Positions 7,013 through 20,217 of a stretch of DNA of 24,473 nucleotides are shown here, in pieces; within the stretch, counting starts at the first letter, position 1; the number at the start of each line of letters is the position of its first letter. The stretch is from the IMG/VR virus record IMGVR_UViG_3300044645_000512, positions 1-24,473 of that record; one strand, written 5' to 3'. The DNA is from a virus. Below the pieces are notes generated by a model. That model worked only from the letters and a program-made list of their open reading frames with translations. It did no database searches and was not told the DNA's origin. Made by a program: the position numbers and the translations under genes.

Positions 7013-7311
7013 TGCTTGTTAATCGGTTTGCAATAGATTGCGCCGTCATCCGCAATACGGATGGCGCTTACGCGGAAAGGAGCGCCAGTGCCCATAGGCA
7101 AATAAAACGGGATCGGGGTGTATGCAGGAATTGGGGTGCTGCCAGTTGTTGCAACCGCAGCAGGGCCAATCTCTACATAGCAAGGGGTCGTAGACCAGAC
7201 CATCACGCCTTCAGGGCCAGAGCCCCAATCAGCAGTATTGCCCGCAGAACCGCTGTAAGACGCGGTGCGGCCAGGAAAACCAGTTTGTGATAGCGGATTC
7301 AGAAGTTCCAT
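7009..7311 (-). CDS. 100-residue hypothetical structural-module protein
   Basis: A beta-rich protein beginning MELLNPLSQTGFPGRTASYS, with a central GPEGVMVWSTTPCYVEIGP and a C-terminal GAPFRVSAIRIADDGAIYC. The TAA of the upstream gene forms part of its Shine-Dalgarno (TAAGGA, 6 bases before ATG). I recognise this kind of small protein beside portal and tail genes in related phages but not its role. The fold looks like a small beta sandwich, so a head-completion or tail-attachment role is possible. It has no enzyme motif. Confidence 0.68.
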   Translation of the reverse strand: MELLNPLSQTGFPGRTASYSGSAGNTADWGSGPEGVMVWSTTPCYVEIGPAAVATTGSTPIPAYTPIPFYLPMGTGAPFRVSAIRIADDGAIYCKPINKQ

Positions 7312-7320
7312 GATGCGTCC

Positions 7321-7683
7321 TTATGCCAAAAAGCGGAGTTTGTACAGAGTGCGAAGATAAATCTCAATGATGTTGTCAATGAGCTGCTGCAAAGATGAGT
7401 CGGATTTGTCAGCTACTTCATACCGGCAATCTTCAATTTCTTTTAACGAGTCTTCCAAAAACTCAATGATGTTAGCTGTCTTCTTTGCCGAATGCAAAGT
7501 AATTGGCCCCATCAAACCATGCCGGCCTTGATAGCTTTCAGCAAAGTTATCAGCAGCATCAATGATGCGCTCATAAAAGTGCGCCAAAGCCTTGTGTTTG
7601 GAATAGCTGCGGGTGTTCAAGTGAACGCTATGCGTCACATCTCGGGCAAGAAACAGCAACCCTACAAAATCGCACGCTTTCAT
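7321..7683 (-). CDS. All-helical DUF5856-like protein
   Basis: A 120-residue helical protein: FVGLLFLARDVTHSVHLNT, then SKHKALAHFYERIIDAADNF, AESYQGRHGLMG, and a C-terminal helix LQQLIDNIIEIYLRTLYKL. The His/Glu/Asp pattern in the first two helices (H18, H21, H29, H35, E38, D42) recalls four-helix ferritin/Dps-type bundles and the phage family I know as DUF5856. It is not known to me whether members bind metal. AAGGGA lies 7 bases before the ATG. The start overlaps the portal stop by four bases (ATGA). Confidence 0.68.
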   Translation of the reverse strand: MKACDFVGLLFLARDVTHSVHLNTRSYSKHKALAHFYERIIDAADNFAESYQGRHGLMGPITLHSAKKTANIIEFLEDSLKEIEDCRYEVADKSDSSLQQLIDNIIEIYLRTLYKLRFLA

Positions 7684-9872
7684 TGTGGCATCCCTTGTTG
7701 TTCGGGCATCATCTGTTGTTGAGGCATCATTTCGGGCATCATCTCACTCTGATCTCGGCCAGGCATTTCATTCACCAGGTCTCCGGATGTGATCATGCCA
7801 TGCACCGTGCCCAAGACTATATCTTGAATTTGCTCTGGTGACATGCTTGCCTGCACTTGAGCCAAACGCTTGGTCTCAGCTTCGTACGCCTTGACCTGGG
7901 CCTCAAAGTCCTTGCGCTCCATGTCTTGCGCTTCGATGGACTTGCCGACATTTTGAATCATCTGGTGCATCTGCTCCATCTCTTGGCCCATAGCCTGCAT
8001 CTGCTGCTGGGCCGCCTGCAATGCTGGATTGTCATCGCCATCTGACATGAACTTGGGATCAATGGTCTTGGCAAAACGCTTAGACATCTCTTGGGCGCCA
8101 GGCCAATCCATGTTCTTGACAAACAGGTCACCGGCCACAGCCCACAGTTGAGGGTTTCCTTGCAACAGTTGTGCCATTGCTTCCAGTGCCTCTTGACGTT
8201 TGGTCGCGTAGCCTGGGCCAGTGATCGCCACCACGTCGTATTTGCCAACGCCGGGGTTGTAGATTTTTTCCATCACAATCCCGCGCTCATCAACAATCTT
8301 GTTGACCGGCTGCTCTTGATCGGGGTTGATCTTAACCATCTTGGTCTCGCCATCTTCACCGATGATGCGAGCGATGCGCTGGGTATCGTAAATTTTGGGG
8401 ATCAAGTCCACCAACTGACGAGCCACATGGCGCACACCGCGAGCCAAATTGTCCCCATAATGGTATGTGCCCACATCGCCTTCGCGCTGGCGGGCCAGAA
8501 TGGCTTTGCCGCTGCGTTCGTTGGAGCCCATTCCCAAAGATGCGTTGTATTGACCTGTGGTGCTCTTGATGTCTTCAGACGCCCCTGCCTTGGCTTGCAA
8601 TAGGCCGCTGGATGCCATTGGAGGCTGTGCCCGCTGGGGTAGCGGCAACATGCCGCCTTGGCCGTCTGTAACGTCTGGATTGACCTCCAAATACGGCCAG
8701 TTTTGCGTGTTGGCGGTTTTCCACTGGTTCTCATAGCCCTCAAACTGGCCACCGTAGCCAATAAATGGGGCTTTGGGCGCCAAGGCCAACATCTCGGCTT
8801 CTTGGGACACCCAGTAGTTGTACATGCGCTGGGCATCTTTGGCGTTGCGCACCAAACCCGACACGTACAAACGACCGTCAACCTCAAATTCGTTGCCCAC
8901 GATGCGGATCACGGGAATGTACTTGCCCGCCCACTCGCGCTCTTCAAGAATTTCGTACCCATTGATCTTGCAGTACTTGACTTTTTGGCGGTCAGATTGG
9001 CGTGACTTCTTAGGCTTGCCGTAGATCGCCCGCAGTTGCTTGTCCTCTGGCGTACCCTCAAACGCCGTAGCGTTGCCGGGATACAGGTTCAACGTTGCGG
9101 GGTCAAAGTCAATGTAGTAGTAATCAGCAATGCGGATCGTGTCTTCATTGAGCCAGTTGCTGATCGACTGATCGCCCACACCCAGCGACTGCAAGGTGGT
9201 GATGGGCGACGCATCGGGGTACATCCGCTCAAACTCGGCTTTGGTCAAGTCTTCAGTGACAAAACAATACTTGGCGTCCGCGCCGGTCGGGTCTTGGATG
9301 GTTGGATCCATGTAGACCGAAAAGGAGTTGCGCACCCGGCCAATCTTGATGTCTTGGTCAAACGTGTTGTCGTCGCAATACTCGGTCAACAGGCGAAGGT
9401 AGCCTTCGCCGTAAGAAACTTGGTTTTCGCAGGCAGTGTCGTAGGCCACATCAGCGTCGCTGATGTACTCAATGTGCCGAATCATGCCGTTAAAAATATC
9501 GGCCACTTCCACGTCGGCGTTGTCGTCCACCGGGATGACTTTGGCGCCTGGCCGGTTCTGGCGCTGGTCGTTGGTGACCTGGCGCACATGCTGGGGCAGC
9601 TTGTTGATTGTCAGACACGGGCGGGCGTTGATGGTTTGACCTTGCACCGCGCCACGGGTGGCCAGCACATCGGCGGGCCACTGCCAGTGGTTGTCGGGCG
9701 AGCCGGCATAAAAGCGCAGGTCGTCGATCTCATCTTCGCGGCTCTCGGCAAGCGCGGACACCGCCATATCCAGCCTAGCACGGGCTGTGGCCAGGATGTC
9801 AGACGCGCTTTTCTTGGGTTTACCGCCTTCGGCCACTGCGCCAGCAGCCGCAATGCCTGTGAAGTCTGCCAT
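7680..9872 (-). CDS. Portal protein, P22-like
   Basis: A 730-residue protein, close to the 725 residues of P22 gp1. Residues 101-114 (NDQRQNRPGAKVIP) and the following VDDNADVEVADIFNGMIRHI are diagnostic of P22-type portals. Middle motifs such as GYLRLLTEY, WLNEDTIRIADYYYIDFD and GMGSNERSGKAILARQREGD fit the family. A coiled, Q/M/E-rich region (about residues 625-690) leads to a Met/Gln/Pro-rich tail, probably the helical barrel region. The dodecameric ring sits at one head vertex and is the docking site for terminase and tail. Its ATG overlaps the stop of the 58-residue gene upstream (TAATG). Confidence 0.92.
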   Translation of the reverse strand: MADFTGIAAAGAVAEGGKPKKSASDILATARARLDMAVSALAESREDEIDDLRFYAGSPDNHWQWPADVLATRGAVQGQTINARPCLTINKLPQHVRQVTNDQRQNRPGAKVIPVDDNADVEVADIFNGMIRHIEYISDADVAYDTACENQVSYGEGYLRLLTEYCDDNTFDQDIKIGRVRNSFSVYMDPTIQDPTGADAKYCFVTEDLTKAEFERMYPDASPITTLQSLGVGDQSISNWLNEDTIRIADYYYIDFDPATLNLYPGNATAFEGTPEDKQLRAIYGKPKKSRQSDRQKVKYCKINGYEILEEREWAGKYIPVIRIVGNEFEVDGRLYVSGLVRNAKDAQRMYNYWVSQEAEMLALAPKAPFIGYGGQFEGYENQWKTANTQNWPYLEVNPDVTDGQGGMLPLPQRAQPPMASSGLLQAKAGASEDIKSTTGQYNASLGMGSNERSGKAILARQREGDVGTYHYGDNLARGVRHVARQLVDLIPKIYDTQRIARIIGEDGETKMVKINPDQEQPVNKIVDERGIVMEKIYNPGVGKYDVVAITGPGYATKRQEALEAMAQLLQGNPQLWAVAGDLFVKNMDWPGAQEMSKRFAKTIDPKFMSDGDDNPALQAAQQQMQAMGQEMEQMHQMIQNVGKSIEAQDMERKDFEAQVKAYEAETKRLAQVQASMSPEQIQDIVLGTVHGMITSGDLVNEMPGRDQSEMMPEMMPQQQMMPEQQGMPQ

Positions 9873-10048
9873 TATTTGATCTTATTAAGGACTTTGTCCA
9901 CCGTTGCCTTGACATTGTTGCCCGATGGAATTGTGGCATTGCAGTTGGCAGTGGGTGAACGGGTCTCTTTGTTGCGGTCAGGCATACCGCCGCCCGACAT
10001 TTTGGGTTCGCGGCTGTTCAATTTGGCAATGGGTGCAAGAGTTTTCAT
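9872..10048 (-). CDS. 58-residue basic hypothetical protein
   Basis: A small lysine- and asparagine-rich protein beginning MKTLAPIAKLNSREPKMSGG and ending VDKVLNKIK. AAAGGA precedes the ATG by 5 bases. The ATG overlaps the previous stop (ATGA) and its stop overlaps the portal ATG (TAATG), so it is tightly tiled. It is the last of four tiny basic proteins between terL and portal. No known motif is visible. A DNA-binding, virion-packaged or terminase-portal accessory role is possible but unproven. Confidence 0.65.
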   Translation of the reverse strand: MKTLAPIAKLNSREPKMSGGGMPDRNKETRSPTANCNATIPSGNNVKATVDKVLNKIK

Positions 10049-10182
10049 TTCTTTCCTTTCGGGGCTGCACGTTTGACTGCGTATGCAATGGCCACGGCCT
10101 GCTTGACGGGCTTGCCCGCTTTGACTTCGGCCTTGACGTTCTTGCGGAATGCTTCGGGGGATTTGGATTTGACAAGCGGCAT
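10045..10182 (-). CDS. 45-residue Lys/Ala-rich basic protein
   Basis: The sequence MPLVKSKSPEAFRKNVKAEV continues with a lysine-rich stretch ending KQAVAIAYAVKRAAPKGKK. The motif KQAVAIAYAVKR is one I have seen in very short phage proteins near terminase and portal genes, where it forms an amphipathic helix. Net charge is strongly positive. Its stop overlaps the next ATG by four bases. The Shine-Dalgarno is weak (GAAG), so translation may depend on coupling. Function is unknown. Confidence 0.65.
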   Translation of the reverse strand: MPLVKSKSPEAFRKNVKAEVKAGKPVKQAVAIAYAVKRAAPKGKK

Positions 10183-10183
10183 G

Positions 10184-10336
10184 TTACTTCTTCTTTGCAG
10201 TTTTGGCCGACTCTTTAAACGCTTTGGCAGTGGGCGCGCCGGGCGAGCCAGGCTTCCTCATCTTCTCTTTACTGCCAGCGGCGATACGTGCCTGTTTTGC
10301 GTGGATATTACTATACAAGCCGGGTTTGGTAGCCAT
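10184..10336 (-). CDS. 50-residue basic hypothetical protein
   Basis: It starts MATKPGLYSNIHAKQARIAA and continues KEKMRKPGSPGAPTAKAF with a KESAKTAKKK tail. The N-terminal GLYSNIHAKQARIAAGS and PGSPGAPTAKAF elements are of a type I know from small uncharacterised phage proteins between terminase and portal. I chose the ATG at 10336 because GGAAG lies 7 bases upstream and it begins 2 bases after the previous stop. A longer in-frame start at 10393 would overlap the preceding gene heavily. Function is unknown. Confidence 0.65.
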   Translation of the reverse strand: MATKPGLYSNIHAKQARIAAGSKEKMRKPGSPGAPTAKAFKESAKTAKKK

Positions 10337-10337
10337 A

Positions 10338-10595
10338 TTAACACTTCCATCGTTTGAGTGACGCTTTGGCGCGTTCAGCATCGCCTTTGGCATGCTTGAC
10401 TACGCCTTCCATGCGGGCGCAGAAACTGGCTTTGCGGCCAGCATCTGCTTTGGTCTTGGGGCTGGGTGCTGGCGCCTTGAGGTTGGAGCCTGTGGCGGCG
10501 TTGTACTTAGCGCGGCCCTTCTCAGTCAGACCTGCGCCCTTGGACACCGGCAACTTTTCGCCGCGACCCACGCTTAAAGAAACACCTTTTTTCAT
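10338..10595 (-). CDS. 85-residue basic protein, DUF6321-like
   Basis: Residues about 1-45 contain SVGRGEKLPVSKGAGLTEKG and RAKYNAATGSNLKAPAP. The C-terminal half has SFCARMEGVVKH and ends ASLKRWKC. This arrangement (GLT..GRAKYN..TGSNLKAP, then K-SFCARM, then KRW-C) fits the phage family I recall as DUF6321, of unknown function. The ATG at 10595 overlaps the terL stop by four bases (ATGA). An in-frame ATG at 10607 is also possible but has a poorly spaced ribosome site. The protein is very basic; nucleic-acid binding is a reasonable guess only. Confidence 0.7.
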   Translation of the reverse strand: MKKGVSLSVGRGEKLPVSKGAGLTEKGRAKYNAATGSNLKAPAPSPKTKADAGRKASFCARMEGVVKHAKGDAERAKASLKRWKC

Positions 10596-12115
10596 GCGCC
10601 CATCCATCCTGTAGACACTGCGCTACCGTAGCTTCTAGCGGTGCGCTTGGGTTCAGCATACTCACGATGTGCCACTGGAAAGGCAAATGTGACGCAGATA
10701 GCGTCAGCAGCGTCGGGTGAGGCAAGACCGCGAGCTTTCATTTCTTTTTTGCTTTCCAAGAAGATTGTTCCCCGTGAATCAGGCTTCATCATAGGCGAAA
10801 TCAAGTCCGTCTTCAAGAACCTGTCGCTAGGAATACTAGCAGATTTCAGCCATTCTCGCATATCTCCCCACATCTGCGCGCGCATATTACCGTACATGAT
10901 CGGGTTTTTGGCTTTATTTCCAAAGTTTATGCCCTTGACCTTGTACCGCTGCTCTTTGAGCCTGTCCACAATACCCGCGCCCAGCCCGCCTTCGTCAATC
11001 ACGACCAGCGCAGGCTTAAATTCCTCAATTGCTTCGATCACATACCCCACCACCGTCATGGTGTCGTCGCCTCTGTGCCGCATTATCTTGACAATATCCC
11101 GCCCTTGCCTGACCGCGATCACCGTAGCGTCCGCTCCGAACCGCGCTGGGTCTACGCCGATTACGATTGGCGCCGACTGATCCTTGTACTTGGGCCGGGC
11201 CATGGCGTCGTCCACTATGTCGGCGCCGATGAACTGGTCATCCCCCGCACTGGGGAACATGCCGTAAACCTCAACGTGCGCTTGTGATGAGTCAGGCCCA
11301 TATTCGTCAATGATTCGGTTGTAAACCGCCTTGTCGGTGCCCTCGACCGTCCTGGCGTCCACAATCCTGGTGCGCCAGAACGCCCGTTTGCTGTTAAACG
11401 CTTCGTAAAAGTACCCGGTGTTGCGCCGTGGGTTGGAAAAAGCCAACCAGAAGCGGTTTGGCGTGTTTTCTGTAAAGAAACCGCCGGTCACCGCCCAGAT
11501 TGAGTCGTCGATACCGGACGCTTCGTCAAAAACCACCAGCACACCGTCAAAGTTGTGCACACCAGCGTAAGCGTCAGGGTTCTCGGCCGACCACAACCGC
11601 CCTTCCACGCCCCAGTACCGCGTGCCTTTTTTCAAATCCCGCTCAACAAGCTCAGTCAGCCACTTGGCCGGCATGACGCGGGTGGCTGACACCTCAAACC
11701 AGTGCGAGTTGATGGCCATGGCCAGCCATTTGGTGATCTCGGCCCAAGTGATTGACCTGAGTTGTGACTCGGAGTTAGCCGATATGATAGTCGTCGAGCC
11801 GATGCGCGTGGCCAACATCCAGATCGTGATCCATGAGACCAGCGCCGACTTGCCAATACCCCGGCCAGATGAGATAGCTTCTTGCAGCACATCAAAGTCT
11901 GCCTTGCCCTGGTTCAGTTTGATGTGCTCGGCAATGTCCAGCAACACCTCGCGCTGCCATTTGCGCGGCCCTTGGAAGTTTTCCAGTGGCGTGCCCTTGA
12001 CGCCCCAGGGAAAAGCAAACATCACAAACGCCAGCGGGTTGTCCTTGATCGCTGGGCTCCACAGCCGGGCCATCAACTCTTGTTCGTCTTCAGCGCTGTA
12101 CTTGGTGCTCTGCAT
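10592..12115 (-). CDS. terL: Terminase large subunit
   Basis: A 507-residue packaging motor. The ATPase half shows Walker A at residues 82-91 (SSGRGIGKSA), coupling-type ISANSESQLR (111-120), Walker B VLVVFDEAS (192-200, with D197 and E198) and motif III-like LAFSNPRRNTG. The nuclease half has the RNase-H-like acidic sites in VIGVDPARFGADATVIAV (D322 and neighbours), VVIDEGGLGAG (D374) and SPDAADAICV (D468/D471). It cuts concatemeric DNA and pumps it through the portal. Its start lies inside the end of terS (26-base overlap), so the two are coupled. The complete motif set argues for an intact enzyme. Confidence 0.93.
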   Translation of the reverse strand: MQSTKYSAEDEQELMARLWSPAIKDNPLAFVMFAFPWGVKGTPLENFQGPRKWQREVLLDIAEHIKLNQGKADFDVLQEAISSGRGIGKSALVSWITIWMLATRIGSTTIISANSESQLRSITWAEITKWLAMAINSHWFEVSATRVMPAKWLTELVERDLKKGTRYWGVEGRLWSAENPDAYAGVHNFDGVLVVFDEASGIDDSIWAVTGGFFTENTPNRFWLAFSNPRRNTGYFYEAFNSKRAFWRTRIVDARTVEGTDKAVYNRIIDEYGPDSSQAHVEVYGMFPSAGDDQFIGADIVDDAMARPKYKDQSAPIVIGVDPARFGADATVIAVRQGRDIVKIMRHRGDDTMTVVGYVIEAIEEFKPALVVIDEGGLGAGIVDRLKEQRYKVKGINFGNKAKNPIMYGNMRAQMWGDMREWLKSASIPSDRFLKTDLISPMMKPDSRGTIFLESKKEMKARGLASPDAADAICVTFAFPVAHREYAEPKRTARSYGSAVSTGWMGA

Positions 12116-12533
12116 GTGTTAAATCCAATTTAGGGCTGGGCGCGTGGGCGATAACGTCGATGACCCTGGACTCAGCGTCGCGCAGCGCCTGGGTAACTGA
12201 TATGCGCTGATCAACATCAATAGTGATAGATTGCTTGGCCACCCAGCCGTGGACGTTTTGGAGTATGGCTAACGCCGCCTTGGAGTCGCCCTCTCGCGCC
12301 GCCTTGTGCAAGCACTGGGACATTTCCATCTCGGCGTCTGCCTTGCCCTTTTGCGCTGCCATCTCCGCGATGGGGTCAAGCTGCACCAGTTGCCGGTACT
12401 CGGCGGGCAGCATGCCAGAGGCCAACGCCAACGAGTCGCCTTTCAGCCCCAGCTTGGCGGCTTCGTAGATGCGGTGCAAACGCGCCTCAGTCGCTTCGAC
12501 CTTGCGCGGTGCAAAAGGTAGGCTTTCAAACAT
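12090..12533 (-). CDS. terS: Terminase small subunit (probable)
   Basis: A 147-residue, mostly helical protein directly upstream of terL and overlapping it by 26 bases, the standard terS place. Residues about 13-70 (VEATEARLHRIYEAAKLGLK, GDSLALASGMLPAEYRQLV) form a helix-turn-helix-like region. Residues about 75-120 (DAEMEMSQCLHKAAREGDSK, AALAILQNVHGWVAKQS) are an oligomerisation-type helix pair. The long frame could begin at 12698, but that extension crosses the repeat region; the ATG at 12533 is preferred. It has no Shine-Dalgarno. An extended -10 lies so close upstream that the mRNA may be leaderless. The protein normally recognises the packaging start site. Confidence 0.8.
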   Translation of the reverse strand: MFESLPFAPRKVEATEARLHRIYEAAKLGLKGDSLALASGMLPAEYRQLVQLDPIAEMAAQKGKADAEMEMSQCLHKAAREGDSKAALAILQNVHGWVAKQSITIDVDQRISVTQALRDAESRVIDVIAHAPSPKLDLTHAEHQVQR

Positions 12534-12564: not shown

Positions 12565-12591
12565 TGTGGGTCGTGTGGGCAATGTGGGCTA
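12565..12591 (+). repeat. Three tandem 9-mers, block A
   Basis: TGTGGGTCG, TGTGGGCAA and TGTGGGCTA stand head to tail without spacers. Read on the minus strand they give NNNCCCACA units. They overlap the region where the -35 contact of the late promoter would be. Confidence 0.8.
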
Positions 12592-12716
12592 TAAAAAATT
12601 TTGTTTGTGGCCCCTCCGCTGCCGTGGCCTTCGGCGCTCGGCCCTACCCGGGGGGCATCAAGCAAACAGCAAACGGCAACCGGGCACGCAGCCAGCAACC
12701 TTACAAAAACTTACAA

Positions 12717-12757
12717 TGTAGTACTTTAGTGGGGGGCAATGTGGGCAGTGCCCACAA
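12717..12757 (+). repeat. 41-bp direct repeat, copy 1 (block B), with palindrome
   Basis: It begins TGTAGTACTTTAGTGG (12717-12732, identical to 12795-12810) and continues with GGGGCAATGTGGGCAG. Positions 12740-12756 form the perfect palindrome TGTGGGCA-g-TGCCCACA, which pairs a forward and an inverted 9-mer element. Confidence 0.8.
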
Positions 12758-12794
12758 GACCCGGTGGCTCGCTGGCCGTGGGGTTTTTTGGCCG

Positions 12795-12836
12795 TGTAGT
12801 ACTTTAGTGGAGGGTCATGTGGGCAATGTACCCACG
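12795..12836 (+). repeat. 41-bp direct repeat, copy 2 (block C)
   Basis: The first 16 bases are identical to copy 1, 78 bases downstream. The remainder (AGGGTCATGTGGGCAATGTA, then CCCAC) diverges at a few places but keeps one TGTGGGCAA 9-mer (12818-12826) and an imperfect inverted partner. Confidence 0.78.
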
Positions 12837-12847
12837 CGTTTTTTTTT
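12819..12847 (+). terminator. Terminator-like hairpin with T9 run, no gene upstream
   Basis: GTGGG (12819-12823) can pair with CCCAC (12831-12835), followed after GCG by nine T (12839-12847). It would end plus-strand transcripts arising inside the repeat region, for example a primer or small regulatory RNA. The 3-base gap before the T run weakens the call. Confidence 0.35.
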
Positions 12848-12899
12848 GCGTCTGAAACGGGGGCTTGTGAGCATTCGTGAGCCATACACCTACTGTGTA

Positions 12900-12946
12900 G
12901 CTACTTAGTATTACATACATTTTTAAATCAACTAACATCAAAACAC
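12900..12946. other. AT-rich core between the two inverted 9-mer arrays
   Basis: From GCTACTTAGTATTACATACA through TTTTTAAATCAACTAACATC this stretch is clearly AT-rich and lies between blocks C and D. If the region is an origin, this is the natural candidate for the unwinding element. That is an inference from position and composition. Confidence 0.4.
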
Positions 12947-12947
12947 C

Positions 12948-12965
12948 TTGCCCACATTGTCCACA
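12948..12965 (+). repeat. Two tandem 9-mers (block D): TTGCCCACA TTGTCCACA
   Basis: Two units abut without spacer, in inverse orientation to blocks A-C. TTGTCCACA is the DnaA-box consensus reported for GC-rich genomes such as Streptomyces and mycobacteria, one base from the E. coli TTATCCACA. Confidence 0.8.
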
Positions 12966-13003
12966 AAGTAGGTTTTTCATAGGCAAAATAACGTGCTGGC
13001 CGC

Positions 13004-13022
13004 TTGTCCACACTTGTCCACC
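13004..13022 (+). repeat. Two 9-mers (block E): TTGTCCACA c TTGTCCACC
   Basis: Two units in the same orientation as block D, separated by one base. The first is an exact TTGTCCACA; the second differs in the last base. Confidence 0.8.
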
Positions 13023-13024
13023 GA

Positions 13025-13054
13025 CTACCCACGCGCTCACCCACATTGTCCACA
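13025..13054 (+). repeat. 9-mer block F: CTACCCACG, TCACCCACA, TTGTCCACA
   Basis: CTACCCACG (13025-13033), TCACCCACA (13037-13045) and an exact TTGTCCACA (13046-13054). The last two abut, repeating the tandem arrangement of block D. Confidence 0.7.
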
Positions 13055-13086: not shown

Positions 13087-13115
13087 TTGACAAGTGCAAG
13101 GCAATGCCTTACATT
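13087..13115 (+). promoter_or_regulatory. Sigma70-type promoter of the plus-strand cassette
   Basis: TTGACA (13087-13092, perfect -35) and TACATT (13110-13115, 4 of 6 for -10) are separated by exactly 17 bases. An AT-rich stretch (TATAAAATAAT, 13074-13084) just upstream could serve as an UP element. The predicted start near 13122 leaves a leader of about 44 bases before the first ATG. Confidence 0.75.
13095..13113 (+). promoter_or_regulatory. Palindromic operator in the promoter spacer
   Basis: TGcAAGGCA-a-TGCCTTaCA is a 19-bp near-palindrome with 8 of 9 pairs matching (perfect core 13098-13110). It fills the spacer between -35 and -10 and enters the -10. A dimeric repressor bound here would block the promoter. 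The repressor gene is not identifiable in the window. Confidence 0.6.
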
Positions 13116-13165: not shown

Positions 13166-13372
13166 ATGTCCACACTTAACAAAAGCCAGCTGCGCGAAGC
13201 CACCAAAATCATCACCTACAGTGCGTCACTTGGTGATGACTACCTGGCGCGCGGATTGTCTGCGATGTATCGCAGCGCGCGCAAAACAAGCCAGCAAAAT
13301 GAAATCCTGGCGCTGGCGCTGGCGTATAAAGTGGTGTCAAACCCTGAATTCTTTATCGGCCGGCGCGCCTAA
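13166..13372 (+). CDS. 68-residue hypothetical helical protein, first gene of plus cassette
   Basis: It begins MSTLNKSQLREATKIITYSA and continues SLGDDYLARGLSAMYRSARK; almost all is predicted helix and basic. I chose ATG 13166 because AAGGG stands 5 bases upstream; an earlier in-frame start lies within the promoter. It is the promoter-proximal gene, so probably among the first made. The helical pattern could include a small DNA-binding fold, but no helix-turn-helix is convincing. No family is recognised. Confidence 0.7.
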   Translation: MSTLNKSQLREATKIITYSASLGDDYLARGLSAMYRSARKTSQQNEILALALAYKVVSNPEFFIGRRA

Positions 13373-13437: not shown

Positions 13438-14100
13438 ATGCAAGTTCACATCACAATGAAAAGCGCAAATGCGAAAACCGGCCCGATCCCTGTCAGCACC
13501 ACCGAAAAGGCATCATGCCCGCCAGACTGCGCCATGCGCGCTGAGTGCTATGCGGCCAGTGGCCCGCTGGCTTTGCATTGGGCTGCAGTCAGCGCGGGCA
13601 CGCGCGGCACGTCATGGGGTCAATTCTGCGAGACCATCGCGCAGCTGCCCGATGGCCAGCTGTGGCGCCACAATCAAGCGGGCGATCTGCCCACGGTCAG
13701 CGGGTCGATTGACGCTGTCAAGCTCGGCCAATTGGTGGCCGCGAACCAAGGCAAGCGCGGTTTTACGTATTCGCACCATCGTGACGCGGCCAGCATCGCA
13801 TGGATACGCCACGCCAACGCGTGGGGTTTCACTGTCAATCTGTCAGCCAATGATTTAGTTGACGCTGACGCGCTGGCCGATCAAAACGCGGGCCCGGTGG
13901 TGGTGGTGTTGCCTTCAACGCAAACCAGCAACACCACTACGCCAGCTGGCCGCCCGGTGGTTATCTGCCCCGCCACCCAGCGCGCTGACGTGTCCTGCGC
14001 CAGCTGCCAGCTGTGCCAGCGCCAGCGCGCGGCCATTGTGGGATTCCCTGCCCATGGCTCACGCCACCGGGTGATTAATCTGCGCCTGGCCAATGCTTGA
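13438..14100 (+). CDS. Cysteine-rich phage protein, DUF7227-like
   Basis: A 220-residue protein (MQVHITMKSANAKTGPIPVS). It has an N-terminal cysteine set CPPDCAMRAECYA (C27, C31, C37), a conserved-looking LWRHNQAGDLP (76-85), FTYSHHRD (109-116), VNLSAND (133-139), and a C-terminal set CPATQ...CASCQLCQ (C177, C187, C190, C193). I recall this layout as a phage family named DUF7227, with a faint likeness to gp88-type proteins. Eight cysteines in two clusters suggest a Zn or Fe-S site; that is inference. AAAGG lies 9 bases before the ATG. Enzyme activity is unknown. Confidence 0.75.
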   Translation: MQVHITMKSANAKTGPIPVSTTEKASCPPDCAMRAECYAASGPLALHWAAVSAGTRGTSWGQFCETIAQLPDGQLWRHNQAGDLPTVSGSIDAVKLGQLVAANQGKRGFTYSHHRDAASIAWIRHANAWGFTVNLSANDLVDADALADQNAGPVVVVLPSTQTSNTTTPAGRPVVICPATQRADVSCASCQLCQRQRAAIVGFPAHGSRHRVINLRLANA

Positions 14101-15881: not shown

Positions 15882-18152
15882 TTATACGGGCTCGACCATG
15901 CGCCGAAGGTCAGAGCGGGAATACTCACTAAGTTCCGGCGCGCAGAAAACGTGCTTCTTTGTGTCATGGTCGCGCGATTTAATGCGGCCCATGTCGATCC
16001 ACCCGGCCTCTTTGAAGGCGTGCAATAGCGCGGCCTGGACGACCTTGGTGCCCGTGGGGGCGATGCCTTGCAAGCGGTCGCAAAGGCCATAAAAGGGGCC
16101 ACCACAGACCCCACGCGAGAATTCACCCGCACGCCTGCGCATGAGGTCAACCAAAAACGATTCAGCGCCGCTCATGCCATGCTCGACCATGATGGACTTG
16201 GCCTCAGTCATGGGGGGCGCTGCGTTGGGGTTCCACGCGCTCACGTCACGGGTGTGCAGGTAATGGGCCACGGCCTCAAAGCCGCCCCGGTGCTGGTACC
16301 AATTCCACAGGCTCACCGCTTGAGCTTCTGGGAGCTTGGGGGCATCGGCCCAAAGGACGAACCAGCGCCGATCCTCTGAGGGGATCGAGATGGCCACGCG
16401 CTCATTGGAGAAGGCGATCACAAAAACGCGGTTCAAGGCCATGTAGGGGTGGAGCCCTTTTCGGTTGACCATGAGGAGCTCAGGGGGCGCAGCGATGATG
16501 GGCTTGAGGGTATTCTCAAGGGCGCGGCGGTCTTTGGCTTCGGCCTGCCTGAGCTCGGCGATTTCCATCACTTCGCACTCAAGCGCATAACCCCATTGGC
16601 TTGTGAGCTCTTCGTTCTTGACCAGTGAGCAATTGTGCTTGGATGGGCCACCAATGGCCCAGAAGAAGGGGGCGAACAGGGTATCTTTGCCTGACCCATG
16701 GTTGCCACCCAAAAGGATAGCGTGATTGATCTTGTGGCCTGGAAACTGGACTTTATGGGCCAGCGCGTTGAGCAGGTGCTCGCGCTCAAACCGCTCGGGC
16801 ACCATGCGTTCTACGTGCGCCAGCCACAAGGCCGGGTCACCGGCCACCGGCTGCGGGCGCGCATCGCGCCATCGGTTGCCGTAGACCTGACCCTCACGGG
16901 CCACCAGCACGGACGCGCCAGCGGCGTAGGTGATGCCGACCAGGGACTTGGCGCCCTTGCCTTGGCGGTTCTCATCAAATGATGTGGCGGCCTCGATGCG
17001 GCGCTTGGCGTTATGGATTGATTTGCAATCGATGTGCCGGTACAGAGCGTTGAAGGTGTTGCGCGAGACTTCGCGGCGGTCGGTCATGTCGAAAAAGGCG
17101 TCATCTGTCTGGACGTAGGCGAAGCGCTCGAACCATTCGTTTTTCTCGACCCGGCCCAGTTCTTTGCGCTCCACCTCGGCGATGACGCGGGCGGCTTCGT
17201 CTGGATAGTCGGCCGTGGGGGCAAGCCTGGAGAGCGCGGACTCCATGGCTTGGGTGAGCAGTTCCTCACGCAAGCCGGGGGTGTGGGCGGGGCCGCCTTG
17301 GTCAGCCACCCACGTCAAAAAGGCGCGGGAATCGAAGTCAACGCAATGCGAGTGAAGGCAGCAATAGGCCCGGTTGGCGGGCATGTAGCGCCCCTCTGGG
17401 TTGCCGTCGGTATGCTCGGCACTGTTGGGGCAGATGACGCCCGCCCAGCCCTCGCCGTTGGGCTTGGACAAGAGCAGACCTTGGCCACTGAGCCACGCCA
17501 TCACGTCATCGGCGCCATCATCAGAGATGCGAATCGGGCGCAGGGTGAGCGAATCGGGTTCGACCGGCGTCACGTCCAAGGCGGTGCAGATGTCTGTGAG
17601 GGCATATTCGCGTTCTGGATGAAAAGTCACCAGGCGCGCGGCGAAGTTGTCGCGGCCCGGTTTAAGGTTGACGCTACCAGGCAAGCGGAAGTTGCGCACC
17701 GGGTTGCAGGCGCCAGGGTCGGTGTAGCCCGCCTCGGCGATGGCTTTGATGGCCGCGCTAAATTCGGCCTTGGTCGGTTGGTCGCTGAAGGCGTAGCCCC
17801 ACTGGAACGACCCAGGGGAGGTCTCCATGATCCAGGTGGGCTCAAGCGGTGGGGTCTTGGACTTGGTGCCAATGTCGTCCAGCATCATCACCAGGATGTA
17901 CTCGCAATTGGCCGCCGACGCTGACACCCGGCCCTCGGCGAAGCGGTCGATGATGAAGCTGGCCGTGTTGCCATACCAAGCTTGATCTGCTTTGATGCGC
18001 TTGGGGTCGGGCAGGAATGCCGGCCATGTGCATTTGACTGCGCCGTCGGCGTGGAGTTGTATCTCGCCGTCTTTCAACTGTGGTTTTTGCCTGACAATTA
18101 ACGCTGTTTCGCCTGCTGGGGCAAGTTTTGTAATAAAATCCAGAAATTCCAA
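15882..18152 (-). CDS. Primase-helicase (RepB-type primase plus DUF5906/D5-like ATPase)
   Basis: A 756-residue two-part replication enzyme. The N-terminal 200 residues contain EYILVMMLDDIG (84-95) and RNFRLPGSVNLKPGR (153-167), typical of RepB-family primases. A zinc-ribbon-like part follows (CPNSAEHT...CCLHSHC, 241-270). The C-terminal helicase has Walker A GGNHGSGKD (482-490), acidic ECEVMEIAEL (525-534), and VIAFSNERVAISIPSEDRRW (578-597) with the arginine finger region of DUF5906/D5-like SF3 helicases. The start is TTG at 18152, supported by AAAGGAG 7 bases upstream; no nearby ATG fits. It probably primes and unwinds at the phage fork with the polymerase upstream. Confidence 0.88.
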   Translation of the reverse strand: MEFLDFITKLAPAGETALIVRQKPQLKDGEIQLHADGAVKCTWPAFLPDPKRIKADQAWYGNTASFIIDRFAEGRVSASAANCEYILVMMLDDIGTKSKTPPLEPTWIMETSPGSFQWGYAFSDQPTKAEFSAAIKAIAEAGYTDPGACNPVRNFRLPGSVNLKPGRDNFAARLVTFHPEREYALTDICTALDVTPVEPDSLTLRPIRISDDGADDVMAWLSGQGLLLSKPNGEGWAGVICPNSAEHTDGNPEGRYMPANRAYCCLHSHCVDFDSRAFLTWVADQGGPAHTPGLREELLTQAMESALSRLAPTADYPDEAARVIAEVERKELGRVEKNEWFERFAYVQTDDAFFDMTDRREVSRNTFNALYRHIDCKSIHNAKRRIEAATSFDENRQGKGAKSLVGITYAAGASVLVAREGQVYGNRWRDARPQPVAGDPALWLAHVERMVPERFEREHLLNALAHKVQFPGHKINHAILLGGNHGSGKDTLFAPFFWAIGGPSKHNCSLVKNEELTSQWGYALECEVMEIAELRQAEAKDRRALENTLKPIIAAPPELLMVNRKGLHPYMALNRVFVIAFSNERVAISIPSEDRRWFVLWADAPKLPEAQAVSLWNWYQHRGGFEAVAHYLHTRDVSAWNPNAAPPMTEAKSIMVEHGMSGAESFLVDLMRRRAGEFSRGVCGGPFYGLCDRLQGIAPTGTKVVQAALLHAFKEAGWIDMGRIKSRDHDTKKHVFCAPELSEYSRSDLRRMVEPV

Positions 18153-18169: not shown

Positions 18170-18193
18170 AGCCCGCCTGCCAGCGGGCTTTTT
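18170..18193 (+). terminator. Hairpin between polymerase and primase genes; T-tail on plus strand
   Basis: AGCCCGC (18170-18176) and GCGGGCT (18183-18189) are perfect 7-bp arms, followed by TTTTT on the plus strand. In the sense (minus) direction the stem has no T run. It would therefore stop antisense transcripts, while in the sense message it forms a stem just before the primase ribosome site. Confidence 0.5.
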
Positions 18194-20087
18194 ACTTACC
18201 ATATCTCGACATGATCGCCACCTCTGCGTCAAGGGGCAAGCCCTTGGCCCACTCGGGCGGCGTACACATCACCTCTTTCAATCGCACAGCCATCTCCTCT
18301 GGCCGGTCGGTCTCAATGACCACCTCGTCATGGACGTGGAGCACCACGTCGTCAAGCTGGCGCAGGGTATGGCGTAGCAAATCGTTGGCCGTTGCCTGCG
18401 TGATATTCTCACACGCCAAGCCTTTCCATAACCTTGCACGCGGCCATTCTTTTGCGTCTGCTGCTGGTTTCCATGCGGCCTTGGCGTAGCTCACACCATC
18501 GGCGTCCAGCTTGGCAAACGGATAGCACAGCACCCGCGCGGAGGGCAGAGCATACCAAAGGTGCTGGCCGTCGAATAGGTACGTAACCCGGCCCACGCTG
18601 AACTCATGGCCCTTGTTGCGCATGGCGCGGGTGTAGGCTTCCTCAAGGTTTTGCCAATACGGCACAGACCAAGGGTTTGCCCTACGCCATGCGTCTACCA
18701 TGCGCTTGGATTCAAACTCAGTGAGTTGCACGCCATAGGCGCGGCCCATGGCCGCGAAAGCGCCCACGCCACCGGCAAAGCCGCAGGCGAGCTCTTGCAC
18801 CTTGCCGATCTGGCGCTGGTCTTTCGTTACCTCATCGACCCGCACGCCAAAGGTGGCGGCAGCGTTGACCTTGTACACATCCTCGCCTTTGGCGAAGATG
18901 GCCAGCTTGTCATCCCCACGGCCAGACAACCATGGATTGGCGCGGGCCTCTATCGCCGCCCAGTCAGCCACGACCAGATGTTTGCCGGGTGCAGGAATGA
19001 GCGCGGGCCTGAGCATCCCCTTGAGGACGTCGGTGACTCGCTTGCCGTATGTTGGGACGATGGCGTGTCCCCTGACCATAGCGTTGCGTACGGCTGCGGG
19101 TTCTTCAGCGGTTTTACGGGTGAAATTGTGAACCTGGGCGCCGTAGCTAGAAGCACGGCCTGTAGCCGAGCCTCCAGCAAAGACAAACGCTCCTCGGACT
19201 CGCTCATCTTCAATATCTGCCAAAGCTGCAAGTCGACTGAATTTTGCGACTGACGAAGCCCAGAGGTCGTCTGCGCACTGGATGACTTCTTGAACATGGG
19301 GTGGGACATCCTCACAGTTTAAAAGATTGGCTCGCACAGTCTTGTCGATGCTGTACTTACCGTCCTTCTCCATGAGCTTGAGCGCTTGCGGCCCCACGCG
19401 CTCAATGACCCACTGGCGCATCTTGGGGGAGCGCACGCTGGTGATGGCGCCCTCGGTGACCTCGGCCACGATCTGCTCAATCTCGACCAACTCATCGCTG
19501 GCGTACTTGACAGCGGCCTTGCACAAGGGCACATCGACCAACACGCCTCGGTCGTTGATGCGCTCGTTGACGTGGTAGTCGAGCAGCTCTTCCTCTGACA
19601 GTGGCCGCAGCGCCTTGCTGATCGAGCGCATGGCCCTGACGTCTTGCTCGCAGTAGGCCACCATCTCGGCCATCAGTTCGGGGTCGTTGCGAAATGGCGG
19701 TATGCACAGCAAGCGGATCAACTGCGAGCCGCGATGGTCTTTCTTCATGGACGCGCCGGCAAAGCGCCCCACGTCTTCAAGCGAACCCGGCGCGCAGTTG
19801 GCGCGGGCCTGGGTGGCGGTGCAGTAGAACTGCTCCAGCTTAAAATTTATTTGTAAGACGTACCAAAAAATGAGGCGTTCAAACGCTGCGTTGTGGGCGT
19901 AAATTACACCTTTGTAATCTTTGACTTGAGCGGGAAATGGTTGGTTAGGCATCCATGTCTGGACGTCATCATCGCCAAAAGCGTAGGACATGCACAGCAC
20001 TTCGGTGCTTGCATCTTGAGCGTAGTTGTAAACGCCCGCCGCCTTCAGGTCGCAGGCGCTACGGGTTTCAAAGTCAAGCCAGAGCAT
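18192..20087 (-). CDS. Family-A DNA polymerase with 3'-5' exonuclease
   Basis: A 631-residue polymerase. Exo I DFET at residues 5-8, Exo II HNAAFE (65-70) and Exo III YCEQDV (145-150) give the proofreading domain. Palm motif A is VVADWAAIEARA (372-383), motif B DQRQIGKVQELACGFAGG (423-440) and motif C VHDEVV (585-590), all with catalytic residues present (D375, R425, K429, D587). A longer TTG start at 20105 exists, but the ATG at 20087 places Exo I at the usual distance. The start lies inside the end of the 47-residue zinc-finger-like gene. It replicates the phage genome. Confidence 0.92.
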   Translation of the reverse strand: MLWLDFETRSACDLKAAGVYNYAQDASTEVLCMSYAFGDDDVQTWMPNQPFPAQVKDYKGVIYAHNAAFERLIFWYVLQINFKLEQFYCTATQARANCAPGSLEDVGRFAGASMKKDHRGSQLIRLLCIPPFRNDPELMAEMVAYCEQDVRAMRSISKALRPLSEEELLDYHVNERINDRGVLVDVPLCKAAVKYASDELVEIEQIVAEVTEGAITSVRSPKMRQWVIERVGPQALKLMEKDGKYSIDKTVRANLLNCEDVPPHVQEVIQCADDLWASSVAKFSRLAALADIEDERVRGAFVFAGGSATGRASSYGAQVHNFTRKTAEEPAAVRNAMVRGHAIVPTYGKRVTDVLKGMLRPALIPAPGKHLVVADWAAIEARANPWLSGRGDDKLAIFAKGEDVYKVNAAATFGVRVDEVTKDQRQIGKVQELACGFAGGVGAFAAMGRAYGVQLTEFESKRMVDAWRRANPWSVPYWQNLEEAYTRAMRNKGHEFSVGRVTYLFDGQHLWYALPSARVLCYPFAKLDADGVSYAKAAWKPAADAKEWPRARLWKGLACENITQATANDLLRHTLRQLDDVVLHVHDEVVIETDRPEEMAVRLKEVMCTPPEWAKGLPLDAEVAIMSRYGK

Positions 20088-20217
20088 TTTTAGCCGCGTC
20101 TTCAATTATTTTTCGTCTGAGTTCAAACGGCGCGGCTGAATAGCAATTCGCGCATATGCAGCGGAACAGGATTGCCACCTCGGATTCCACGGCGCCGCAG
20201 TAGTTACATTTGTCCAT
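20074..20217 (-). CDS. 47-residue zinc-ribbon-like protein
   Basis: MDKCNYCGAVESEVAILFRC continues ICANCYSAAPFELRRKIIE. CNYC and CANC (C4, C7, C22, C25) form a classical four-cysteine zinc ribbon, followed by a short helix. It overlaps the polymerase start by 14 bases, so the two are coupled. Small zinc proteins next to phage polymerases may bind DNA or a partner protein; no family can be stated. The Shine-Dalgarno is weak. Confidence 0.7.
   Translation of the reverse strand: MDKCNYCGAVESEVAILFRCICANCYSAAPFELRRKIIEDAAKNALA

Follow-up and report, generated by a model that had tools for sequence, protein, structure and literature searches.

What reads the 9-bp repeats in the gap from which the terminase genes and the early operon of this phage diverge, and what do they do there? 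The window is the whole stretch of DNA analysed, a complete viral contig record (IMGVR_UViG_3300044645_000512; 24.5 kb, 24,473 nt) of a P22-portal phage. Its relatives were found in environmental metagenomes and in samples of freshwater. The 9-mer region (12565-13054) fills a 632-bp gap. On one side lie the terminase large subunit (10592-12115, − strand), used as the query for finding relatives, and TerS (12090-12533, − strand), named from its position and the annotation of a homolog. On the other side the early operon starts at 13166 (+ strand), with a candidate sigma-70-like promoter, TTGACA-17-TACATT, at 13087-13115 (+ strand); this is a consensus match, of a kind expected 0.6 times by chance. 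The early operon encodes a DUF7227 protein (13438-14100, 2e-81), found in only some relatives. Its small ORFs were dropped as candidate readers of the units, because they are not present in all relatives and no DNA-binding family was found among them. The phage replication module includes a primase-helicase (15882-18152, − strand) and a family A DNA polymerase (18192-20105, − strand).

The unit is a 9-mer, TGTGGRCAA/TTGYCCACA. Arrays A to C lie on the + strand and arrays D to F on the − strand, the two sets pointing inward at an AT-rich core (∼12894-12946). Array A (12565-12591, +), located 32-58 bp upstream of TerS, consists of three abutting 9-mers, TGTGGGTCG TGTGGGCAA TGTGGGCTA. Array B (12740-12756) is a back-to-back inverted pair, TGTGGGCAG / TGTGGGCAC, with its + unit at 12740-12748 and its − unit at 12748-12756. 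Array C (12818-12826, +), which is TGTGGGCAA, marks the left edge of the putative origin core. The units of the region were read directly from the sequence and also scanned for. The core itself (12894-12946, ∼74-75% AT) is a putative melting element, and 12900-12946 is 74% AT, a value equalled by only 0.8% of the 50-mers in the window. Adjoining it is array D (12948-12965, −), a tandem pair TTGCCCACA TTGTCCACA, followed by array E (13004-13022, −), where TTGTCCACA and TTGTCCACC (13004-13012 and 13014-13022) are 10 bp apart, and array F (13037-13054, −), TCACCCACA TTGTCCACA. The original prediction had described at least eleven units with an exact 9-bp period, A to C in one orientation and D to F in the other. 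The repeats, the abutting 9-mers and the facing layout all stand; some units carry 1-2 mismatches, the units at 13004 and 13014 break the period, and array B contains both orientations.

These inverted arrays around an AT-rich core are real. The gap contains all six perfect TGTGGRCAA units of the 24.5 kb, compared to a mean of 0.03 and a maximum of 1 in Markov shuffles of the gap. When one mismatch was allowed, 10 units were found in the gap, the shuffles giving a mean of 0.6 and a maximum of 5. The 9-mer TTGTCCACA is present three times in the contig, every copy inside the region.

Relatives were then compared. Among 80 loci collected via the terminase, most carry facing arrays of 9-bp period in the same gap. 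Spacings of 9 bp between TGTGG/CCACA cores account for 36 of ∼63 short spacings in the gap of relatives, versus 5 of ∼80 outside, and in 74 of 82 relatives the core between the facing arrays exceeds the flanking DNA in AT content. Most relatives have a tandem pair at the spot of array D, and counterpart tandem units of array C are also present. The unit itself is replaced wholesale: the types TGTGGACAA, TGTAGGCAA, TGTGGGTCA, TTTGGGTCA, TGTGGGCTA, TGTTGGCTA, TGTTGGCAG, TGTCGGCTA and TATGGACAA were all found in the gaps of relatives, the main-array units of any one genome matching one another. A fixed TTGYCCACA search overlooked such changed units. Units were extracted from 286 primase loci with downstream DNA by a fixed grammar requiring tandem copies, which 191 loci passed, versus 0 of 262 shuffled controls. 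The other 95 relatives do not have four or more tandem units of this grammar; the expected unit is often present singly among them, and some deep lineages do not have it. On a tree built from primase residues 1-600, the unit consensus changes ∼41 times.

Conservation in relatives, looked for as a check on the original prediction, thus concerns layout, spacing and AT-rich core, and not unit sequence. The recurrence of these three features supports an origin of phage replication in which the iterons are arranged as inverted arrays. A turn of GC skew at the region, also expected, is uninformative either way: in 7 near-complete relatives the skew is weak, inconsistent and confounded by gene orientation, with a minimum near the region in 3 of 7. 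As the DnaA box is conserved and the units of relatives vary, a fast-changing phage protein is indicated, and not host DnaA. Judged from sequence comparison, the 9-mers are most likely docking sites of the phage's own replication initiator.

The protein proposed as reader is the primase-helicase, composed of an AEP primase, a DUF5906/D5-SF3 helicase and a predicted C-terminal winged helix. Pfam detected DUF5906 at 5.3e-11, with RepB_primase below threshold, and hmmsearch against PDB sequences matched NrS-1 at E 3.4e-11. The full-length model matched in fold the AEP primases (S-2L PrimPol, RepB') and the NrS-1 helicase region, and more weakly the SaPI5 primase-helicase (E 0.012). For the C-terminal domain (residues 662-753; 15894-16169, − strand), AlphaFold was run on an alignment of 58 C-terminal regions. 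The predicted topology, H-S-H-H-S-wing-S with pLDDT mostly >90, is that of a winged helix. Foldseek with this domain alone returned no match at E <= 0.001 (best E 0.17), and a sequence search of the domain against the PDB matched nothing. In the model, the wing, residues 725-732 (KSRDHDTK; 15957-15980, − strand), sits between strands 719-724 and 733-737. S726 in the wing and K733 beside it are invariant, and positions 725, 727, 728 and 730 are variable.

Does this domain follow the unit? The primases of the window and of relative G021 are ∼99% identical over residues 1-300 and 64-76% identical at 650-750, and their main units differ. Taking G020 and G021 together, both with switched units, identity to the window is ∼84-100% over residues 1-150 and 64-78% over 650-750. 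Pairs with the same unit (window/G001 and G020/G021) are 96-100% identical over 650-750. The TerS of G021 is 97% identical to that of the window despite the switched units. Particular loops go with particular units: several divergent clades combine GR[IL]KSR..D[TS]KKH with TGTGGACAA; the loop GRVASGDFQSKKH is accompanied by TTTGGGTCA, GRLASREYQTKKH in most cases by TGTTGGCTA, GRxASR...STKKH or STRKH by TGTAGGCAA, and GRLKSSLHDTKKH by TATGGACAA. Residues ∼300-450 of the primase likewise differ where close relatives carry different units (68-84% identity, compared to ∼99% for most of 1-300), and a weaker covariation signal is found at residues 445, 454 and 455; going by these alignments, the 300-450 segment is perhaps a second DNA or partner contact.

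Plain Mantel tests did not separate primase from TerS, as both proteins track the phylogeny; tests within clades and by independent contrasts took their place. On 106 dereplicated loci, the mutual information of primase residues with unit positions, computed within clades, peaks at residues 721-743, the top residues being K725 (z = 29.5), R727 and D730, all three in the wing. Covariation with the unit reaches z = 26 for the primase and a maximum of ∼2 for TerS. The median distance to the units is 210 bp for TerS and 2.5 kb, across an early operon of variable content, for the primase gene. The nearer gene has no signal and the farther one has it, so linkage alone is no explanation.

Residue rules were counted on 94 loci, leaving out the TerS-proximal array A. 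R727 goes with G at unit position 2 in 93 of 94 loci (best within-clade shuffle, 87); the exception, L128, has a consensus drawn from few scattered units. A at position 6 goes with K725 in 90 of 94 loci (best shuffle, 76), and with D/E730 also in 90 of 94 (best shuffle, 72). K725 is accompanied by G at position 4 in 41 of 41 cases, a one-way rule as G4 is also seen without K. On the tree of residues 1-600, which excludes the specificity loop, K725 and A6 each change ∼20 times; the independent contrasts agreed in ∼15.4 of 16 for A6 and in 10 of 10 for G2, none being contrary.

Because the rule residues had been picked on the first data, 127 further loci were fetched as a hold-out. Primases less than 97% identical to any earlier one were present in 59 of them, and 22 of these had enough units, yielding 20 distinct cases. 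Agreement was 20/20 for R727, 19/20 for D/E730 and 18/20 for K725, in clades related to the first set, so that independence is partial. One held-out loop, GRLKSREFGTKKH, has lost D730 alone and kept K725; it pairs with TGTGGGTAA, in which A6 is lost and G4 kept, as the code has it. The code is inexact: some K/D loops (window, L146, L167) carry mostly TGTGGG, and A725 can accompany G4. By covariation, the C-terminal domain of the initiator appears to set iteron specificity.

The computations establish the arrays, their conserved layout, the wholesale unit changes and the covariation with wing residues. We infer direct contact, origin firing and helicase loading, and hold it highly probable that the region is a phage origin whose 9-bp iterons are bound by the predicted winged helix of the primase-helicase, the wing mainly setting base choice. 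In the proposed mechanism, the C-terminal domain would bind the iterons, with a putative cooperativity that the 9-bp period makes plausible, and R727 would mainly specify G2, K725 G4, and D/E730, together with K725, A6. The facing arrays of bound protein would load one or more D5/SF3 helicase rings on the AT-rich core between C and D, which would melt; the N-terminal AEP domain would prime, and the family A polymerase would extend. On balance, and with less assurance, we also favour the view that this large freshwater phage family repeatedly reprograms its origin specificity via a few wing residues, the main iterons changing in concert.

Other readings have to be weighed against this one. The primase-helicase might bind the units chiefly to switch transcription between the late (terminase) and the early operon, the origin being elsewhere. 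The arrays do lie in a divergent promoter gap, next to the promoter-like site at 13087-13115. However, the proposed reader is a primase-helicase, and the facing arrays around an AT-rich core recur, as in helicase-loaded origins. We consider this reading improbable as the main function, the two roles being compatible with each other.

It is still less probable that TerS binds the units as a cos/pac site whose core is array A, adjacent to its own gene. Array A mostly stays TGTGGGTCA/TGTGGGCAA where the main arrays have switched, and follows neither the primase loop nor the code. It is, however, confined to the clade of the window, the other clades being without it, and TerS was rejected as reader of the main arrays, since it shows no within-clade covariation with the unit. 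TerS could own array A alone; array A may otherwise be a relic, or serve a promoter. Directly past array A lies a GC-rich block (12600-12656, TTTGTTTGTGGCCCCTCCGCTGCCGTGGCC...GGCCCTACCC), a candidate cos/pac site. Its conservation is good among near relatives of the window, and it can still be recognised in those more distant; 35 of 88 regions match a simple pattern for it.

Recruitment of host DnaA to a DnaA-dependent origin, as first proposed, scarcely remains credible. In its favour, TTGTCCACA has the sequence of the DnaA box in GC-rich bacteria, its three exact copies are all in this region and, as at DnaA-box origins, such units adjoin an AT-rich element. In relatives, however, the layout persists while sequences other than DnaA boxes, such as TTTGGGTCA, TGTTGGCTA and TGTAGGCAA, replace the unit wholesale, which makes host DnaA very unlikely as the reader. 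The units follow the phage primase loop and, in contrast to DnaA-box origins, have a continuous 9-bp period. The alternative offered at the time, a phage initiator, is favoured by the same tracking of the primase-helicase loop. Its supposed mimicry of DnaA boxes is better called coincidence, TTGTCCACA being one of at least 10 unit types. A phage-encoded DnaA was rejected as reader, because DnaA domain IV (PF08299) is absent from the window and from 40 of 41 other records. The one record with it, the distant relative MW202483 (L124), encodes a stand-alone domain IV protein (7083-7379, E 3.4e-19) and has different arrays in its gap (∼9800-10600), where TTGGTAGTG and CACTACCAA face each other across an AT-rich core and ATGTAAACA is also present; the primase loop in its close relatives, GMCAAEELPTKRH, falls outside the wing code.

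The reading we retain, iterons bound by the primase-helicase, probably shares its logic with known systems. P4 alpha is described (PMC4234260, citing Yeo et al. 2002) as one protein combining primase, helicase and a C-terminal winged helix that binds origin repeats. The window resembles P4 alpha and ori/crr in having a primase-helicase and repeats at a putative origin, and the model gives its C-terminal domain a winged-helix topology; it differs in that P4 has a Toprim (DnaG-type) primase and the phage an AEP-type one, in unit and spacing, and in a C-terminal domain with no significant match to solved domains. SaPI Rep and SCCmec Cch2 are self-loading initiator helicases of the D5/Primase_C type, in which the C-terminal domain recognises short iterons; SaPI5 Rep is likewise a primase-helicase fusion (PMC7581432). 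Host type and unit differ there; the putative origin of the window is ∼2.5 kb from the initiator gene, across the variable early operon, instead of directly downstream, and its family has a residue-level code readable from covariation. NrS-1 and S-2L PrimPol resemble the phage protein, in sequence (NrS-1, E 3.4e-11) and in fold, over the AEP primase and the D5-like helicase core. In the PLE satellites of Vibrio cholerae, the origin-binding domain of RepA covaries with the iterons, and the two are exchanged as a pair; an origin-directed nuclease may be among the selective forces (PMC8263062). The exchange in that system involves an entire RepA_N domain and semi-palindromic iterons ∼30 bp long, whereas the family studied here changes a few wing residues and 9-bp units, dozens of times. 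The open literature, to which our search was confined, yielded no description of this family's origin. New compared to known systems are the residue-level wing code, the frequency of independent switches, and the family itself, for whose origin the searched papers gave no description.

A repeat that looked like a DnaA box thus yields a code of protein-DNA recognition that can be tested and that is replicated many times in nature. In a D5-type initiator, the wing, besides the recognition helix, is pointed to as a seat of specificity, and one loop would allow iterons to be predicted for many uncultured phages. The family also offers a system for studying changes of origin specificity that require a joint switch of one protein and a dozen scattered sites. 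If repeated wing reprogramming is true, it would create many mutually exclusive replicon types, for which co-infecting phages, satellites or nucleases directed at origins are plausible selective agents, and the DNA recognition code of the wing would be readable from sequence.

Finally, the gap contains other repeats. In the window, a 34-bp direct repeat (TGTAGTACTTTAGTGG...) is present at 12717-12750 and 12795-12828, the copies being 88% identical and 78 bp apart, and each terminates in a 9-mer unit. A second repeat family of the same gap, the palindrome GTTAGT-n-ACTAAC, was found in 25 scanned regions (G005, G006, G010, G023, L021, L027, L031, L039, L048, L051 and others) and is absent from the window; it is present in 3-8 copies between arrays A and C of these relatives. 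Other tandem repeats in the gap are GCGCACCAGGTA in L065 and AAACAGC in G021.
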